Notes under the pieces: generated by a model | Told to the model about the DNA's origin: nothing | What the model saw: only the letters and a program-made list of their open reading frames with translations | The model's database searches: none | Part shown: piece after piece, positions 43,434 to 54,560 of the stretch | Position numbering within the stretch: position 1 is the stretch's first letter | Layout: each line of letters opens with the position of its first letter | Translations under genes and position numbers: made by a program | NCBI GenBank assembly: GCA_008501635.1 | Contig: QQUJ01000027.1 | Coordinates: 1 to 64,000, forward strand | Direction: 5' to 3' | Length of the DNA stretch: 64,000 bases | Source: Pseudomonadota bacterium | GTDB lineage: Bacteria > Pseudomonadota > Gammaproteobacteria > QQUJ01

Positions 43434-44909
43434 TTAAAGGGCAAAATCATCCTGACGGCTTGCGCGCCAGTCGATCCACCAGCTGAACAGTTTCACCCCC
43501 AAATAACCCCCAAGCACCATGCCGACAAGAAAGACCCAGCCACTCAAATCACCGTTGGTGACGGTGGCGAAGAACGCACCGATGTTGCAGCCCATGCCGA
43601 TACGCGCCCCGAGCCCCATTAAAAAACCGCCGGCGATTGCCAGTACCGCCGTCTCCATATTGGGCATCTTCCACTTGAATTCGCCCTTGATGTTCGCCAA
43701 TACCGCGGCGCCCAGAATGATGCCGATCGACATGAAGCCGGGGGCGTTGATCAGCGGATTGGGGAGGCCGTTATCCAAACCGAAAAATACGTTGTCGGTC
43801 ATGTTGATGCCCACGCGCTCCAGCACCCAGCCGCCCCATTGGGCTTCCTGTGTGGTGATGTACCAGTATCCGGGATCGAACACGGTGTCCTGAATGGATA
43901 GTCCTTTGCTAATCCCCATATTTGCCAGCAGTTCACCGAAATTGAACACCTGATAGTGATCACGCAACGCGCCCGTCACCCACATCTGCATCCCGGCAAA
44001 AACACCCAGACCCAAACCGGCGATGGCGGTATTTTTCGATGAGGTAAACATGGCCCAGATGCCACGCACGTGATCGTGGAGAGTCGGCTGCTCGATGCGC
44101 TGGCGGCGCATATAACCCCTACGATAATTGGCCACATAGAGGAAAAGCAGAATCAGCAGCGTCGGCACAATCGCGCCGAGCAGCATATTACCCACCAAAA
44201 CGCCGTACGCCCCGTCACCGATGCCGAGCCGATCGGCCAACGTCGCACCCTTCAGGTCCCATATATATCCGGCGATAAACTGATCGAACCAGCCCTCAGT
44301 GACGCTCAACGATTCCGGCATCCCTTTGGCTGCCGCCGATTCGGTCCACGCAGCCGGTACCAGACGATCCAGCCAGCCACCCGTTGCTACGATGACGGCC
44401 TGAGAGAATGAGATGGAGACCAGCACCAGCATCGATCCGACATTTCCCTCACCGCTCTTGTAGAGCGAGCTGGAGGCGCAGCCTCCCGTAAAGACGATAC
44501 CGAAGCCGAATATCAGACCGCCGATGACTACATGCCACCCAATCGGATGGGGATGAAATGTCGAAAATCCAGCGATGCTCACCGCAGCCGAGGTCATCGA
44601 GTAGAGCACCACCGCGATCATTACTCCCACGGCCATGCGCGGTACGCCGACCGCGAACAGATCACGCACCGCCGAGGCCATGCAGAAGCGCCCGTACTGC
44701 AGCAGCAGACCGTAGATCAAGCCGAACCAGACATAGGCCAGCAGATAGACGAAACGGGCATCCCGCGCCAGAGCGTAAAGGGAGCCAAGTATGATCATCA
44801 CTACAATTGCCACGGCGTAGATCGCGCCTTTACGCCCCATCCAACCGCTTTCGGTATTCGGCGCACTCAGTTCGACGGCTTCGATATTCTTGCTCATTTC
44901 TCCACTCAT
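43434..44909 (-). CDS. yedE: YeeE/YedE-family (TsuA-like) thiosulfate or sulfur transporter
   Basis: 491-aa integral membrane protein with about 11-12 helices, the sulfur transport family of TsuA/YeeE. Conserved cysteines occur in the expected positions: QYGRFCMASAV, FTGGCASSSLYKSGEG and RIGMGCNIGAFF, which relay thiosulfate through persulfide-like contacts in TsuA. Import of thiosulfate or another sulfur compound into the cytoplasm is likely. It lies between two TusA-family genes in one orientation. GGAG precedes the ATG. Confidence 0.88.
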   Translation of the reverse strand: MSGEMSKNIEAVELSAPNTESGWMGRKGAIYAVAIVVMIILGSLYALARDARFVYLLAYVWFGLIYGLLLQYGRFCMASAVRDLFAVGVPRMAVGVMIAVVLYSMTSAAVSIAGFSTFHPHPIGWHVVIGGLIFGFGIVFTGGCASSSLYKSGEGNVGSMLVLVSISFSQAVIVATGGWLDRLVPAAWTESAAAKGMPESLSVTEGWFDQFIAGYIWDLKGATLADRLGIGDGAYGVLVGNMLLGAIVPTLLILLFLYVANYRRGYMRRQRIEQPTLHDHVRGIWAMFTSSKNTAIAGLGLGVFAGMQMWVTGALRDHYQVFNFGELLANMGISKGLSIQDTVFDPGYWYITTQEAQWGGWVLERVGINMTDNVFFGLDNGLPNPLINAPGFMSIGIILGAAVLANIKGEFKWKMPNMETAVLAIAGGFLMGLGARIGMGCNIGAFFATVTNGDLSGWVFLVGMVLGGYLGVKLFSWWIDWRASRQDDFAL

Positions 44910-46167: not shown

Positions 46168-46647
46168 TTATTGCTGCGCCATGCCTGGTGCCTCGCGATC
46201 GATCTGGTAGATGGCGTGGCAGGCGACACAAAACTGTGCAAGTTCCGCCATCTGACCCACGGTATGACCAATGTCGCTCATCGCCTCGGCGTCGAGGGCG
46301 ATGGTGTCGAAGGTGACATGGACCTTGCCCGCCAGAGTTTTGAAGGTATCGGGCAACTTCGCAACGACAACGGGAGGAACTTCATTGGCCGCACCGCTAC
46401 CCATGCGCTGGGCGGCTATGGCCACCTGCTGCATATCATCCTTTGCCAGCCCTTCCATGATCTGCTGCATCGCGACCACGAAGTTACGCATCTCGAGCAG
46501 CACCAGGTGGCGCTCATCGGGTGGCAGACGCAGCATCTCGCGCGTGTCGGGATCGCCGCCACCCGTGTTGCCGCCGGCAGCCATGCCCGCACTCGCCGCG
46601 CTCAGCACCACCACCGCCACTATCGCTTTCAACCGCTTATGAATCAT
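46168..46647 (-). CDS. Cytochrome c'-like monoheme protein of the sox operon
   Basis: 159-aa predicted periplasmic protein with a signal peptide (to about residue 24, GMAAG) and one CxxCH (CVACH) near the C-terminus (about residue 145), preceded by mostly helical sequence, the layout of cytochrome c' four-helix proteins. It ends the porin-soxXAYZ operon, 15 bases after soxZ. Role in the Sox pathway is unknown; electron acceptor or gas-ligand sensor are options. Confidence 0.75.
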   Translation of the reverse strand: MIHKRLKAIVAVVVLSAASAGMAAGGNTGGGDPDTREMLRLPPDERHLVLLEMRNFVVAMQQIMEGLAKDDMQQVAIAAQRMGSGAANEVPPVVVAKLPDTFKTLAGKVHVTFDTIALDAEAMSDIGHTVGQMAELAQFCVACHAIYQIDREAPGMAQQ

Positions 46648-46662
46648 GCCCGTCTCTCCACC

Positions 46663-46977
46663 TCAACCGACCACTGCGTCGGTACTACCCGACTCGCCTT
46701 TTGTGTCCTCCCAGCTCACCGTAACCCGATCGCCGGCCTTGACGTCGCGCAATCGGAACGCAAAGAACGGGTTGCGTGCGATTCCCCCGCCGCAACGGCT
46801 CGTCACCAGGTTGCGCCCATTCACCGCCGCGGAAATCGTGTGGATGAAGTGTGCGGGAATCTTTTCACCGGTACCCGGGTTGCGCCGCTGCCCGGTCTCC
46901 ATCGGATGCTGGATGATCACCTTGACTTCGATATAGCCGTCCGCGCGCACCACCCGCATTTTCATCGTGTTAGCCAT
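46663..46977 (-). CDS. soxZ: Thiosulfate-oxidising protein SoxZ
   Basis: 104-aa partner of SoxY in the sulfur-carrier complex, Ig-like fold, no signal peptide (exported with SoxY by Tat). Recognisable features: VKVIIQHPMETGQRRN, PAHFIHTI, CGGGIARNPFFAF and VKAGDRVTVSWED. Follows soxY by 28 bases. Confidence 0.94.
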   Translation of the reverse strand: MANTMKMRVVRADGYIEVKVIIQHPMETGQRRNPGTGEKIPAHFIHTISAAVNGRNLVTSRCGGGIARNPFFAFRLRDVKAGDRVTVSWEDTKGESGSTDAVVG

Positions 46978-47005: not shown

Positions 47006-47473
47006 TCAACCGCCGCAGCCGCCGATGGTGACTTCCACCCGCCGGCTGGCGATATAGACTTTGCCCTGCGCCTTGACCACGGCCTTGACCGCAGCGCTCT
47101 CCATCATTTTGATGCGCGTCGCCACATAGGCATCCGCGCCCGGTTCAAAGCTAAACTCCGCAAGGAGCGGCAAAGGATTTTTTTCGGCGATGAGCGCGAT
47201 GTACTCGGTGCCCGCAATGCGGCTGTCCACCGACACCGGTACCATGGCACCGTTGTTGGCAACGGCTGGCGCATCGATAATCACATCGGTGGTTTCCGTC
47301 GCCCCAGTCGCACCGAGCTCGGCAAGCACCTTCTCCAGCCCGTCCGCCGCAAATGCCGCGCGATCCGCCGCGGCGAATACCCGCAGCGGCGCGAGCCACC
47401 CCATGGCCGCAGCGAGGCAGGCACCGCTGGTTGCGGTCAAACCGCGGAGGAATTCTCTTCGGGTCACACTCAT
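47006..47473 (-). CDS. soxY: Sulfur carrier protein SoxY
   Basis: 155-aa carrier with a Tat signal (RREFLRGL, then AAAMGW...A) and the C-terminal swinging arm GGCGG whose Cys binds the sulfur substrate during thiosulfate oxidation. SoxYZ is loaded by SoxXA. Middle region PLPLLAEFSFEPGADAYVATRIKM is typical. 28 bp before soxZ and 16 bp after soxA in one operon. Confidence 0.95.
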   Translation of the reverse strand: MSVTRREFLRGLTATSGACLAAAMGWLAPLRVFAAADRAAFAADGLEKVLAELGATGATETTDVIIDAPAVANNGAMVPVSVDSRIAGTEYIALIAEKNPLPLLAEFSFEPGADAYVATRIKMMESAAVKAVVKAQGKVYIASRRVEVTIGGCGG

Positions 47474-47489
47474 AAAAATATCCTCTGTA

Positions 47490-48389
47490 TCAACGAATGG
47501 AGGGAACCTTGATCGGATAACCGTTGGATAGCGCCGTATAGAAAACCTCCAGATCCACGTAGGCTGGATCGCCGGGCGGTAGAGGTTTGGAGCGCATCTG
47601 CTTGAGGCAACGCATAAACCGCTTGTGCAGCACCTCGATCTCGCCTACAGGAACACGATAAGTGGGAAAATGAGATACGTCGCCAAAGGGCGTTGTCGGA
47701 GTTTCGCCGCGCAAGCGGTGCCCCATGATGCTGTTGGGGGTATGGCACGAGGCGCAGGCGAAATTGAGCTGACCTATGCGCTTGTAGAACAACTTCTCAC
47801 CCCGGTCGTAGGCCGCACGCAACTGCGGAACCTTCAGATCCATTGCGGTCGCCTGACCATCGCTCAGCGATTTGATGAAGGTGGTGATTGCGGCGTTGGG
47901 CTCCGAACCTTGCTTGAAGTTTTCCCAAAGCACCGATTTGGCGCAGTGTTCGACGCGCGCTTCGATGGTCATGACTTCGTCCAAGCGTTTGTCGAATACG
48001 GGATAGCGTGCCGCCAGCCCGCGAAAATCACCACGACCTTCGCTTAAACAGGCGACAAAACCCGGTTCGCGTTTCTCCCATAGCTCAACCAGCTGCTTGC
48101 CCTGATCGACGACCAACGCCCCGGGACTCATCTCGTCGACATCAAGGTCGAACTGTTTCCAGTTGAGCTTCCACGCCTGCGCCTCGTCCGCCGCCATCGT
48201 GATATTCCGGTTGAGCGCCTCGACATCCTTCCAGTAGACATAGGTTTCAGAAAAATCGCCTTCGACACCCAGCATCGGGTCGATGGCGGCGCGCGGATAA
48301 TTCTGATAATCGGTTTCCGCAGCGGCGTAACCGGCACTCGCGATCAGTACCGTCACTGCCAGACTGGTAAAAAATTTCAACTTGGCCAT
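47490..48389 (-). CDS. soxA: L-cysteine S-thiosulfotransferase subunit SoxA (monoheme)
   Basis: 299-aa periplasmic c-type cytochrome; signal peptide MAKLKFFTSLAVTVLIASAGYAA in outline. It attaches thiosulfate to SoxY Cys with SoxX. One CxxCH (CASCH) and a downstream Cys (FMRCLKQ) that is the likely heme-ligand/persulfide residue. The N-terminal heme site of diheme SoxA proteins is degenerate here (VACLSEGRGD ... RVEHC, two Cys without CxxCH). The ATG at 48389 follows GGGAGGAG. Operon with soxX (10 bp) and soxY. Confidence 0.92.
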   Translation of the reverse strand: MAKLKFFTSLAVTVLIASAGYAAAETDYQNYPRAAIDPMLGVEGDFSETYVYWKDVEALNRNITMAADEAQAWKLNWKQFDLDVDEMSPGALVVDQGKQLVELWEKREPGFVACLSEGRGDFRGLAARYPVFDKRLDEVMTIEARVEHCAKSVLWENFKQGSEPNAAITTFIKSLSDGQATAMDLKVPQLRAAYDRGEKLFYKRIGQLNFACASCHTPNSIMGHRLRGETPTTPFGDVSHFPTYRVPVGEIEVLHKRFMRCLKQMRSKPLPPGDPAYVDLEVFYTALSNGYPIKVPSIR

Positions 48390-48399
48390 GACTCCTCCC

Positions 48400-48858
48400 T
48401 CACCTGGACGATTGCAGAAAGGCCACCACATCTCGAATCTCCTGAGACGAAAGAACCTCATTGGTACCAAAGGGCGGCATGACCGTATCAGGTATCCGCA
48501 TTCGCATGTCGTAGACGAGGCCATAAGTTTCGCTGTCACTGCGGCCCCAGGTGCCGTAGCCGCTCAGGTCGGGTCCCCGGCTCCCGGGCTGCGTCCCACC
48601 CTTCAGCACATGACAGGCGAGGCAGTTGCCCTTGTTGCGGGCGAACGCCAACTTTTTGCCGCGTCCTGCATCCCCTTCCAGAGAACCGTCCAACATCGGC
48701 TGCTGTGGCTCACGCACGGCCACTGTGCTGCACGGTAGCGTATAGCTCAGACAGGGAAACGCCATGGGCGAGACCTCTGGCTTAACGGCGCCACCCGGCC
48801 CGCCCGCGCTGCAACCGACTGTCAGCAACGCAAGAACTAGTGTCATCAAACGCACCAT
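48400..48858 (-). CDS. soxX: Cytochrome SoxX, predicted lipoprotein
   Basis: 152-aa monoheme cytochrome with one CLACH site, GSRGPDLSGYG and the axial Met in DTVMPPFG. The N-terminus MVRLMTLVLALLTVGC is a lipoprotein signal with lipobox TVGC (Cys16), unlike the cleavable soluble signal of classical SoxX, so SoxXA could be tethered to a membrane. Ten bases separate it from soxA and nine from the porin gene stop. Confidence 0.9.
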   Translation of the reverse strand: MVRLMTLVLALLTVGCSAGGPGGAVKPEVSPMAFPCLSYTLPCSTVAVREPQQPMLDGSLEGDAGRGKKLAFARNKGNCLACHVLKGGTQPGSRGPDLSGYGTWGRSDSETYGLVYDMRMRIPDTVMPPFGTNEVLSSQEIRDVVAFLQSSR

Positions 48859-48867
48859 GACGCCCTC

Positions 48868-50349
48868 CTAGAAAAAGTGGACCAGTCGCACGCCCAGTAC
48901 GTCGCCTACAGAACCCGTTGCGATATTGGCATTAGAGGTCTTGACCCCCGCGTTGTTGATCTGTGCCGCAGTACTGTTGGCTGGCACTGCTGGATTAGGC
49001 GCCTCGTTATCACGAAAGACGTAGTTGACCGTGACACGGGTTTTAGGGCTGATGTGGTAGTTGAAACCAAGAGCCAGCTCTTCGATCACGCGCTCGTCAG
49101 ACGCTGACCAGTAGCTGTTGTTGACCGTCTCATACAAGAGGTCGTTACGCGCATAGCGCACATCGAACTGCCATTTCTTGTTGAGATAGAAGCCGTACTC
49201 CATGGTCAAACCGCGGGCCTTGTTCTCCTTTTCGGCCGCAATCTGAATCAGGCCACCGTAGGGGCAGTCGGTACAGCTGGTGGTCGCCGCCTGCAACACC
49301 ATGCCTTCGGCATACATCAACTCCATCCCGAAACGGTGCTTGTGCCCGTCTTCGCCAAAAAAGCGCCCCAGTGCCTGAACGCCGAAACCGTAGCGGATTC
49401 GGTCAAAATCGGCGCTCGGTGTACCGGCGGCATCAACGATAAAGTTGCGCACGCCTTTCTGATGATAGGCGTAGAGCTTGACCCCGTTCTTGTGCGGACC
49501 CTTGCCGCCGGACAGATCGTATTCAGAGGAGAAAAAGAGGTTCAGATCCTGCTCGCTATTGTTATCGGTCTGATGGATGCCGTTGCCGTTGCCAAGCATC
49601 GCCGCGTAGGTGTGCGTCCACTTGCCGGTCTTGAACGAATCGAACAACTGCACGCCCCAATCACGCCCCACATCGGTGTCGTAGCCATACGTGGATACAT
49701 TGTCGACATACCCCTGTCCGGCAATGGGATTCGTTCCCTTGGCGTTGCCCTCGATAAACCGCTCGATCTGGTCGCGACGCACGAAGTCGGTGGGGAAAAT
49801 GAAATCCTTGGCCTGCAGGGACTCCGTCAGTTCTTCAGGCCCGGGTTTTTGAAACAAACCGGCCCGCACCCTTACGCCGGGAATATAGCTGAATGTCACG
49901 CTGGCATCGGTGAGCGTCCCCATGCGTTCGCGATCGGTCTTCAACGGTTTGTATGTCGCTGCATTCTGACCGAAGTTTGCGGCCATCAGATAGTTGATAC
50001 GCGAAGGCACGATGTTACCGCGTGCGCCCATGACCAGCGCATCGAGATTGACCCCGTCGCGCCTGTTGCGCAGCTCGGGACCGACCCGGCAGTTATTGAC
50101 GAAATACCCGTTGTTCAAGCCCGGTCCGGCATTGGTATTGCCGGTCGGAGTGCCGTTGGGTGCCGCCAGCCCCTCCAGGCGATCACACCCCAGGTTGTTG
50201 GCGTAGGTAAGTGCCACTGCACCGAAGAAACGATGCTTGACTTTGGGCGGTTCAGTGCCCTGGATCATGATCCAGTTGGCGCTATGAGCAACATTGAGCA
50301 GATTGCCCGCCATCAGGCCGAGCAGCATGAGCAGAGTCTTCTTCTGCAT
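48868..50349 (-). CDS. Outer-membrane porin heading the sox operon
   Basis: 493-aa beta-barrel: signal peptide MQKKTLLMLLGLMAGNLLNV and then a long strand/turn pattern (OprO/P-like, many Gly-Tyr-Asn turns), ending in Phe-Phe (RLVHFF), the BAM signature. AGGGGGAG supports the ATG at 50349. It starts the porin-soxX-soxA-soxY-soxZ-cytochrome operon behind the ECF-type promoter at 50434-50459, so uptake of thiosulfate or similar anions is a natural guess. Confidence 0.88.
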   Translation of the reverse strand: MQKKTLLMLLGLMAGNLLNVAHSANWIMIQGTEPPKVKHRFFGAVALTYANNLGCDRLEGLAAPNGTPTGNTNAGPGLNNGYFVNNCRVGPELRNRRDGVNLDALVMGARGNIVPSRINYLMAANFGQNAATYKPLKTDRERMGTLTDASVTFSYIPGVRVRAGLFQKPGPEELTESLQAKDFIFPTDFVRRDQIERFIEGNAKGTNPIAGQGYVDNVSTYGYDTDVGRDWGVQLFDSFKTGKWTHTYAAMLGNGNGIHQTDNNSEQDLNLFFSSEYDLSGGKGPHKNGVKLYAYHQKGVRNFIVDAAGTPSADFDRIRYGFGVQALGRFFGEDGHKHRFGMELMYAEGMVLQAATTSCTDCPYGGLIQIAAEKENKARGLTMEYGFYLNKKWQFDVRYARNDLLYETVNNSYWSASDERVIEELALGFNYHISPKTRVTVNYVFRDNEAPNPAVPANSTAAQINNAGVKTSNANIATGSVGDVLGVRLVHFF

Positions 50350-50433
50350 AACTCCCCCTCTGAATGTTTTCATTGTGTTATTCGGTGACGCATACCCTGC
50401 GCCGTGACACCCTCTTACGGAGTGTTAACTTGC

Positions 50434-50459
50434 AAACGAACAGACTAAAGAAAAGTTCC
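50434..50459 (-). promoter_or_regulatory. ECF-sigma-type promoter of the porin-sox operon
   Basis: On the minus strand GGAAC (50455-50459), 16 bases, CGTTT (50434-50438). The extended -35 CGGGAACTTT and the -10 TTCGTTT also occur upstream of the ECF sigma gene at the same spacing. It lies about 85 bases before the porin ATG. Confidence 0.85.
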
Positions 50460-50485
50460 CGAAAATTGCGATGTGCCCCACTACC

Positions 50486-50968
50486 TCACTTTGAATTGGG
50501 TCTTTCGTGAAGCATCTGTTCCAGCGAACCGAACGGATTCTGTTCGATGAGATAGTCGGCCAGCGCGTCGCGCTGCGCCGCGTTAAGGATCTCGCGCTCT
50601 TCCATCAGCTGTGCGATCACGGCGCGCTGTTGCTGCTCCTGAAGCCGGGCAATAGCCGCTCGCTCGGCTTCCACGCGCTCGGCATTGGGTTGATCGGAAA
50701 AGATCTCCCAGATCATGCGCATCCGATGCGCGGCGATATCCTGCCAAGCCATGTCGAGCTCGCTTAAAAAACGTCCCTCCTTCGCCCGCCACAAAGAGAG
50801 CTGCGATTCGCTGAGCTGCAGATAGTTGGCGAGAAACGTATGTCCGCGCTGCGCCACTTGTTCAGCGTCGTCATTGGCGACAGCCTGGAGAACCACGCCG
50901 CCCATCACACCCACGTTGAGCAGCAGCGACAACGCAAGGAGCAGAAGCAGATTTCGACGCGATATCAT
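50486..50968 (-). CDS. CpxP/Spy/CnrX-like periplasmic sensor protein
   Basis: 160-aa protein with an N-terminal membrane helix or uncleaved signal (MISRRNLLLLLALSLLLNVG) and an all-alpha periplasmic region with the LTxxQ-like LSESQLSLWRAKE and repeated Glu/Arg/Gln helices, the fold of Spy/CpxP/CnrX heavy-metal or envelope-stress sensors. It follows the anti-sigma by 3 bases, so it may modulate the anti-sigma in the periplasm as CnrX does. Confidence 0.75.
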   Translation of the reverse strand: MISRRNLLLLLALSLLLNVGVMGGVVLQAVANDDAEQVAQRGHTFLANYLQLSESQLSLWRAKEGRFLSELDMAWQDIAAHRMRMIWEIFSDQPNAERVEAERAAIARLQEQQQRAVIAQLMEEREILNAAQRDALADYLIEQNPFGSLEQMLHERPNSK

Positions 50969-50971
50969 CCT

Positions 50972-51409
50972 TTACCTCAAATAGCAGGAGGGGTAGTTCA
51001 GACAGACATTGCCTGGCGGTACAGCGACGAATGGGGCCATGCGCGCCGCTGTGGAAATATCTGCGCTCGGCAGTGGACTCGCCAGACGACTTCCAAGTGT
51101 GACGCCCACGCCCAGGATAAGCGAGGCCGTGAGCGCCAGCGGCACCAGGCCGAACGCCGAATACCGACGCCCAACATCACGTGACTGTTCGGCAACACGC
51201 CAACGCACCTGCTCCACCACATCGATCGCGGCTATACCTTCCAGCGAGGCTCTCATTGCCCGGGATACGGCGTGCAATTCCCCCACCTGGTGGCGACACT
51301 CATCACACCCACGTAAATGTTCTTCCACCGCGGCACGTCGATCCGCGCTGAGTTCGCCATCGATGCAGGCTGAGAGATCTGCGAAACCGGGACACTCGCT
51401 ACGCTCCAT
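50972..51409 (-). CDS. Zinc-finger anti-sigma factor
   Basis: 145-aa membrane protein: cytosolic ZAS domain (about 1-40, HLRGCDECRHQVGE, His-x3-Cys-x2-Cys plus an earlier Cys), one membrane segment (about 90-108, LVPLALTASLILGVGVTLG) and a short periplasmic tail. It should hold the adjacent ECF sigma factor inactive until signalled. The ATG at 51409 is preferred over 51415 because AAGGAG is then 6 bases upstream. Operon with the sigma and sensor genes. Confidence 0.85.
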   Translation of the reverse strand: MERSECPGFADLSACIDGELSADRRAAVEEHLRGCDECRHQVGELHAVSRAMRASLEGIAAIDVVEQVRWRVAEQSRDVGRRYSAFGLVPLALTASLILGVGVTLGSRLASPLPSADISTAARMAPFVAVPPGNVCLNYPSCYLR

Positions 51410-51419
51410 CGTCATCTCC

Positions 51420-52028
51420 TTAACTCTCCACCACGGCCTCTACTCGTGCCAGCAACATGCGACGGGCTCGCGCGACACGCGATTTAACGGTGCCCTCTGC
51501 GACCGCCAGCACCTCAGCGATCTCGGCATAGGACATTCCCTCCAACTCGCGCAACAACAACGCCTGCCTAAAAGCCGGGGGCAGCTCCGACAATGCGCCA
51601 ATCACGTGCGCTAACCGATCCCGGCTGTCCAGCGTCGTCCCGATGTCGACCCCATGACCGGGTGCATCGCTGATCTCCTCAATTGGGACACAGTTCCATA
51701 CCTGGCGGCGCCGCAAAAGATCTATCGTGGCATTGCTTGCAATGCGAAAAAGCCAGGTTCGAAACAGCGCCTGCGGACGCCACCGTCCGAGCTGGCAGAA
51801 AGCCTTGACGAAGGTGTCCTGCGTGAGATCGCGCGCCTCTTCGGGACAACCGGTTGCCCGCAGTACATAGCGATAGATTTTGTTCTGGTAGCGGCGCACA
51901 AGCTCACTGAATGCATCCGGGTCGCCTCGCTGTGAACGCAACACGCACTGTTCGTCTGACAGGCGTGCCGGTGCCTCGACTGCCGATCGTTCGCAGTCAT
52001 CGGAAAGGATCTGGACGATCTCATTCAC
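51420..52028 (-). CDS. ECF RNA polymerase sigma factor
   Basis: 202-aa extracytoplasmic-function sigma factor (RpoE-like): region 2 (SELVRRYQNKIYRYVLRAT ... DLTQDTFVKAF ... FRTWLFRIASN) and region 4 (LPPAFRQALLLRELEGMSYAEIAEVL, VAEGTVKSRVARARRML), no region 3. Its own gene carries the same GGAAC-N16-CGTTT promoter as the porin-sox operon, so positive autoregulation is likely. First of sigma / anti-sigma / sensor. Confidence 0.93.
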   Translation of the reverse strand: MNEIVQILSDDCERSAVEAPARLSDEQCVLRSQRGDPDAFSELVRRYQNKIYRYVLRATGCPEEARDLTQDTFVKAFCQLGRWRPQALFRTWLFRIASNATIDLLRRRQVWNCVPIEEISDAPGHGVDIGTTLDSRDRLAHVIGALSELPPAFRQALLLRELEGMSYAEIAEVLAVAEGTVKSRVARARRMLLARVEAVVES

Positions 52029-52090
52029 GCGTTGTGAACCTCAGCAGCCCTTGCCACGGCATCGGTGGCATCAGCCACGCCTGGGTATAT

Positions 52091-52116
52091 AAACGAACCT
52101 GAACGCGGAAAGTTCC
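52091..52116 (-). promoter_or_regulatory. ECF-sigma-type promoter of the sigma / anti-sigma / sensor operon
   Basis: Minus strand GGAAC (52112-52116), 16 bases, CGTTT (52091-52095), with extended CGGGAACTTT and TTCGTTTA, about 63 bases before the sigma ATG. Same elements and spacing as the sox operon promoter. Confidence 0.88.

Positions 52117-52504: not shown

Positions 52505-54560
<2,056 letters not shown>

Follow-up and report, generated by a model that had tools for sequence, protein, structure and literature searches.

The window, that is, the whole stretch of 64,000 nucleotides of the gammaproteobacterial contig QQUJ01000027.1 that was analysed, carries two neighbouring operons on its minus strand: a cassette for an ECF sigma factor, an anti-sigma factor and a sensor, and behind it a porin-soxXAYZ-cytochrome operon. 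The cassette begins with the sigma gene (51420..52028; 202 residues, GTG start), whose product matches Pfam Sigma70_r2 and Sigma70_r4_2 as well as TIGR02937. The next gene encodes an anti-sigma factor of 147 residues (50972..51415), with an N-terminal zf-HC2 domain (E 5e-9), and the third a membrane-anchored periplasmic sensor of the Metal_resist or CnrX/CpxP type (50486..50968; 160 residues; PF13801, E 8.6e-17). These profile matches bear out a preliminary description of the locus, which had placed a zinc-finger anti-sigma factor and a CpxP/CnrX-like sensor after the sigma gene. The sigma factor has regions sigma2 and sigma4 without sigma3, and it adjoins an anti-sigma factor of the zf-HC2/RseA type, features of the class-I (zinc-finger) ECF factors. 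As in CnrYXH-type modules, a Metal_resist-family periplasmic sensor is encoded alongside the sigma and anti-sigma factors. Beside the module, also on the minus strand, lies an open reading frame of 629 codons (window 52505-54394), which may encode ThiC of thiamine biosynthesis.

A hydrophobic stretch of the anti-sigma factor is read as a single membrane span followed by a short C-terminal tail, which would lie in the periplasm. This tail, PPGNVC-LNYPS-CYLR (50975..51019, minus strand), contains a C-x5-C pair that is a candidate sensor, and its conserved form, PPGxxC-x5-CYL, is present in the window and in 12 relatives. CnrX-type sensors have a metal-binding histidine cluster. No such cluster was found in an alignment of 14 sensors of the window type, in which H154 is the sole near-invariant histidine and no cysteine is conserved; CnrX-type metal sensing by this protein is therefore not supported by its sequence. 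A phmmer search with the sensor sequence did not match CnrX in the PDB, and a single-sequence model, weak at a mean pLDDT of 69, matched no PDB fold. Plasmid-borne copies of the sensor were absent from 72,556 plasmids. Since the sensor has H154 as its only near-invariant histidine and no conserved cysteine, and the tail of the anti-sigma factor is conserved, the signal chemistry likely sits at the two cysteines of the anti-sigma factor, which the CnrX-like protein would assist as a partner; the tail is likely the sensing element as much as the CnrX-like protein is. When genome contigs were searched with the window sigma factor, only matches of 30-42%, spread over many phyla, were returned, among which identity alone is uninformative, and when the same contigs were searched by tblastn with the porin and Sox proteins, no such neighbours lay near the sigma matches.

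The second operon opens with the gene for an outer-membrane porin of the Porin_O_P type (48868..50373), for which an ATG at 50349, behind AGGGGGAG, reads as the likelier start. The four genes that follow encode two c-type cytochromes, SoxX (48400..48858; TIGR04485, 84.7 bits, cut-off 61) and SoxA (47490..48389; TIGR04484, 176 bits, cut-off 110), and then SoxY, with a C-terminal GGCGG swinging arm (47006..47473; TIGR04488, 139 bits, cut-off 125), and SoxZ (46663..46977; TIGR04490, 109 bits, cut-off 76). Each of the four exceeds its NCBIfam equivalog cut-off, so the earlier soxX-soxA-soxY-soxZ calls hold. The calls for the two flanking genes stand in a qualified form. The window porin, which has relatives in the class, is itself without a Pfam match and is assigned through a 46% identical relative that matches Porin_O_P. 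The last gene (46168..46647) encodes a secreted, single-heme (CxACH) cytochrome-like protein with a signal-peptide-like N terminus; it matched nothing in Pfam or NCBIfam and is called a cytochrome by its CxxCH motif only. The genes are closely packed, with gaps of 9-28 nt. Profile searches found no soxB within the operon, which thus falls short of a complete Sox set, and there is no sulfite dehydrogenase among its genes. About 1.2 kb downstream, on the same strand, is a gene for a Sulf_transp (YeeE/YedE) membrane protein (43434-44909), a candidate SoxT/TsuA-like sulfur importer, which lacks the ECF motif.

Upstream of each operon, in the same orientation, is a bipartite element GGAAC-N16-CGTTT. 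P1 precedes the sigma gene (52091..52116, minus strand, extended to 52119; GGAACTTTCCGCGTTCAGGTTCGTTT) and P2 the porin gene (50434..50459, minus strand, extended to 50462; GGAACTTTTCTTTAGTCTGTTCGTTT). The coordinates, strand and spacing of these sites had been given in the preliminary description and proved correct on checking. Both carry TCGGGAACTTT-N10-GTTCGTTT at identical spacing, so that the two leaders share split words of 11 and 8 letters, or 19 positions. The comparison of leaders presumed no motif beforehand, and none of 2000 dinucleotide-shuffled leader pairs reached 19 shared positions, the maximum being 15. No other of the window's 98 leaders matches the sigma leader as well as the porin leader does (the runner-up scores 14). 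In the 3.93-Mb genome, which is 98% complete, GGAACTTT-N10-12-TTCGTTT matches twice, at P1 and P2, and its reversed control not at all; allowing up to two mismatches adds three matches, every one at two mismatches, with nine in the control. Across the genome the bare core, GGAAC-N15-17-CGTTT, occurs about as often as chance predicts (33 matches versus 31 in the reversed control). By itself it would not have been evidence for shared control, and it was rejected as a means of defining the regulon because of that chance frequency. The earlier caution that the pattern might be common at random is thus true of the bare core but false for the extended element. On this analysis of the sequence, the cassette and porin-sox operons are very probably members of a single ECF regulon. 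The position of P1 5' of the sigma gene, together with its conservation, points to autoregulation, and the position and motif of P2 would fit the adjacent output operon of a CnrYXH-type module.

Among 369 genomes of the class, only one, G161, has a close ortholog of the sensor. Its locus encodes orthologs of the sigma factor (E 2.5e-39), the anti-sigma factor and the sensor in the order seen in the window. Within 19.9 kb of this locus GGAAC-N16-CGTT occurs exactly twice, before the sigma gene and between the sensor gene and the next one; two such sites arose in none of 200 shuffles. Relatives of the sensor are present in 37 of the 368 genomes of G161's family, which is a different family from that of the window genome. 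Of 21 loci read in G161's family, 13 hold the cassette and eight a lone sensor paralog. Comparison with these relatives gives the firmest evidence for the twin promoters. GGAAC-N16/17-CGTT lies at the P2 position, between the sensor and the next gene, in all 13 orthologous cassettes and, by the strict pattern, at the P1 position before sigma in 12 of them. Over 22 loci and 291 kb, the window included, 27 of the 28 matches on the cassette strand are P1 or P2, and the opposite strand has five matches. The cassette strand of the eight lone-paralog loci has none. These lone Metal_resist paralogs (L330-L337) mostly adjoin diheme cytochrome genes and are without sigma and anti-sigma genes.

In all 13 relatives the gene after P2 begins 36-60 nt past the -10 element and encodes a secreted protein of 160-164 residues (L298, L328, L329, L338-L347). 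This protein has an HDHG-like stretch and a conserved MVENC-like motif, and its G161 member has no Pfam match. The neighbours of the G161 cassette are genes for ZrgA, a DUF411 protein, a diheme cytochrome and cytochrome b561. The cassette is joined to porin-sox genes in the window genome only, so this junction is without comparative support. Since the same cassette and promoters are followed by another gene in the 13 relatives, the cassette is, as judged from sequence, a conserved autoregulated switch, predicted to work like CnrYXH, whose output has here been replaced by the porin-sox operon.

The model for such a switch comes from Cupriavidus metallidurans, where CnrH, once released, transcribes its own operon, cnrYXH, and the adjacent output operon, cnrCBAT (PMC4803752). 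Like CnrYXH, the window module combines an ECF sigma factor, a membrane anti-sigma factor and a membrane-anchored periplasmic CnrX-like sensor, and its promoters suggest that the sigma factor would likewise transcribe the cassette as well as the neighbouring output operon. Unlike CnrYXH, the window cassette is sigma-first, its anti-sigma factor has a zf-HC2 domain and the C-x5-C tail, its sensor is without a CnrX-like histidine cluster, and its output is a porin-sox operon rather than metal efflux. We hold with high confidence that the locus is a CnrYXH-like autoregulated ECF module with the porin-soxXAYZ-cytochrome operon as its output.

At rest, the sigma factor would be kept at the membrane by the single-span zf-HC2 anti-sigma factor together with the CnrX-like sensor. 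A signal in the envelope, for which a soft metal, a thiol-reactive species or a redox sulfur species are candidates, would be sensed at the C-x5-C tail, at the sensor, or at both, and the sigma factor would be released. RNA polymerase with the released sigma factor would then read P1, a positive feedback on the cassette, and P2, giving the porin, SoxXA, SoxYZ and the cytochrome. We infer transcription from P1 and P2, the membrane topology, the release mechanism and the nature of the signal from the arrangement of the locus; the porin would presumably serve sulfur substrates. An envelope signal, not a cytoplasmic repressor, thus probably turns on the porin-linked Sox genes. The preliminary description had proposed that a periplasmic signal frees the sigma factor for the sox and porin genes. 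That proposal gains from the single regulon, the conserved twin promoters and the CnrYXH logic, but its sulfur signal does not follow: in the 13 relatives the cassette has an unrelated output, a small secreted protein, and its signal may therefore be something other than sulfur.

The porin family is also found with ECF factors of another kind. Of the 369 class genomes, 51 encode relatives of the porin, and an ECF sigma gene, usually divergent, lies beside the porin in 33 of 52 fetched loci. The anti-sigma factor of these loci has an N-terminal zf-HC2/RseA-like part and a C-terminal DsrE domain with an invariant cysteine. The DsrE assignment comes from a profile match to MTH1491 (E 4.7e-18), from Pfam and from a predicted fold (pLDDT 87) that resembles 1l1s (E 4e-10) and then DsrEFH. 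With its periplasmic DsrE domain and invariant cysteine, an anti-sigma factor of this kind resembles a sensor of sulfur in the periplasm. In many of these loci the porin gene is preceded by a gene for a second, secreted DsrE protein. This DsrE-type ECF system is widespread in the class (L123-L174, e.g. L133 9915-11191 and L160 5671-6923); in the window's own genome, no ECF gene was found beside DsrE-like proteins. Of 32 loci, 16 have strict GGAAT/C-N14-18-CGT pairs, one toward each operon; almost all of these are of the GGAATAAA type and have CGTC. Like these divergons, the window module joins an ECF pair to this porin family and has two operons, each with a promoter of its own. It differs in its operons, which are not divergent, in its promoter, which is not of the GGAATAAA/CGTC kind, and in having a CnrX-like partner instead of a periplasmic DsrE domain in the anti-sigma factor. 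In a quick tree the 32 porin-linked sigma factors form one clade with 98% support and the window sigma factor falls outside it, so orthology with them was rejected. Unrelated sigma factors thus appear to have linked this porin family to ECF control on two occasions.

In G155 and G266, soxX-soxY-soxZ-soxA follow the DsrE-type sigma and anti-sigma genes, divergent from the porin (L166 3026-8957 and L172 2998-8702), making a second, independent ECF-porin-sox arrangement. Sox loci with an ECF gene are otherwise rare: among 57 further soxA loci, one has such a gene in the fetched stretch, about 6 kb off, so that the idea of ECF linkage as their general trait was dropped.

ECF control of sulfur oxidation has precedents. 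RpoE4/SorT of Sinorhizobium meliloti and SigE/SorAB of Starkeya novella belong to ECF26 and control sulfite dehydrogenases (PMC3511301, PMC6527743). There, as in the window, an ECF sigma factor and its cognate anti-sigma factor adjoin periplasmic sulfur-oxidation genes. The output, however, is sulfite dehydrogenase, not SoxXAYZ, the cited portions of these accounts describe no CnrX-like sensor, and DsrE is mentioned once in the cited portion of PMC3511301. The ECF26 consensus they give is GGAAT/CGTC, compared with GGAACTTT/TTCGTTT in the window, whose operon also has no linked sulfite dehydrogenase; in both respects the window sigma factor departs from the RpoE4-like type. In Arcobacter butzleri, ECF factors alter sox operon expression and Sox activity (PMC3445524). 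That account, in its cited portion, concerns opposing control within broad regulons and describes neither direct promoter recognition nor an adjacent module of the window kind. ECF control of sulfite dehydrogenases and ECF influence on sox are therefore already known from these accounts (PMC3511301, PMC6527743, PMC3445524).

SoxR, of the ArsR type, likewise controls sox expression according to sulfur availability, but as a cytoplasmic repressor rather than by transmembrane sigma release (PMC10451225, PMC11582611). The preliminary description had noted that Sox clusters are more usually under SoxR or two-component systems; the Arcobacter case shows that ECF influence on sox is not new. The window's genome has a second sox cluster, on another contig (L207 4219-13594). 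This cluster contains soxYZA together with genes for a SoxX-like cytochrome and a SoxB-like protein. It runs from a thioredoxin-like protein, a PhnD-like sensor kinase and a response regulator through soxY, soxZ, soxA, the SoxX-like cytochrome and the SoxB-like protein (560 residues; L207 10502-12184) to a CcdA-like and a second thioredoxin-like protein; all names except soxY, soxZ and soxA are taken from translations. Since the second cluster lies beside a two-component system, the ECF switch would govern only one of the two Sox sets.

What the switch responds to can be read in two ways. It may be a metal or general envelope-stress switch with the sox operon placed behind it, so that the porin, SoxXA and SoxYZ are made upon metal or redox stress and not for a sulfur substrate. 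The Metal_resist family of the sensor, the small His-containing secreted protein driven by the cassette in the 13 relatives and the gene neighbourhood in G161 all favour this. Against it, the sensor is without the expected metal-ligand cluster, and it could answer a sulfur-reactive signal (sulfite, polysulfide or thiol stress) in both settings. We give this reading somewhat less than an even chance. Alternatively, a reactive sulfur species such as sulfite, polythionate or polysulfide would attack the C-x5-C pair, making the switch a sulfur-specific inducer of Sox. The Sox output, the plausible target offered by the conserved cysteines, the association of the porin family elsewhere with an ECF system whose sensor domain is DsrE (sulfur-relay), and the control of sulfite dehydrogenases by sulfite-responsive ECF factors in Sinorhizobium and Starkeya, as far as cited (PMC6527743, PMC3511301), are consistent with this. 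The presence of the identical pair in cassettes that have no recognised sulfur genes around them counts against it, and we give this proposal, too, less than an even chance.

Other readings concern the promoters themselves. It is improbable that transcription of the sox operon depends chiefly on read-through or on some other promoter, with P2 minor or a relic. No terminator was found between the sensor and porin genes, so P1 alone could serve the sox genes, but such read-through would itself amount to ECF control. That region showed no sigma-70-like promoter either, and every orthologous cassette has a P2 in the corresponding place. That the two matching sites are a coincidence, as the chance-level frequency of the bare core might suggest, is very improbable given the shuffles, the uniqueness of the extended motif in the genome and its conservation in 13 relatives.

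The CnrYXH-like module with a porin-sox output would thus place a sox operon under transmembrane sigma release with a defined candidate cysteine pair, which is directly testable by reporters. Bacterial sensing of reduced sulfur outside the cytoplasm is poorly understood, a point made in work on SoxT about regulators that respond to external sulfur (PMC11582611). Two unrelated ECF switches, one of them with a DsrE domain, are repeatedly linked to a single porin family, which suggests that anti-sigma factors may widely serve to sense sulfur in the periplasm. It is conceivable, though we hold this at less than even confidence, that ECF switches which sense the envelope, and which arose from at least two unrelated sources, commonly govern Sox and the uptake of sulfur across the outer membrane in the class. 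Most of them would have a membrane anti-sigma factor whose periplasmic DsrE domain, with its invariant cysteine, would sense sulfane sulfur directly in the periplasm, and the window would hold a replacement switch with a C-x5-C tail and a CnrX-like partner. If so, ECF switches of multiple origins would offer bacteria a general means of sensing sulfur in the periplasm, in parallel with SoxR.
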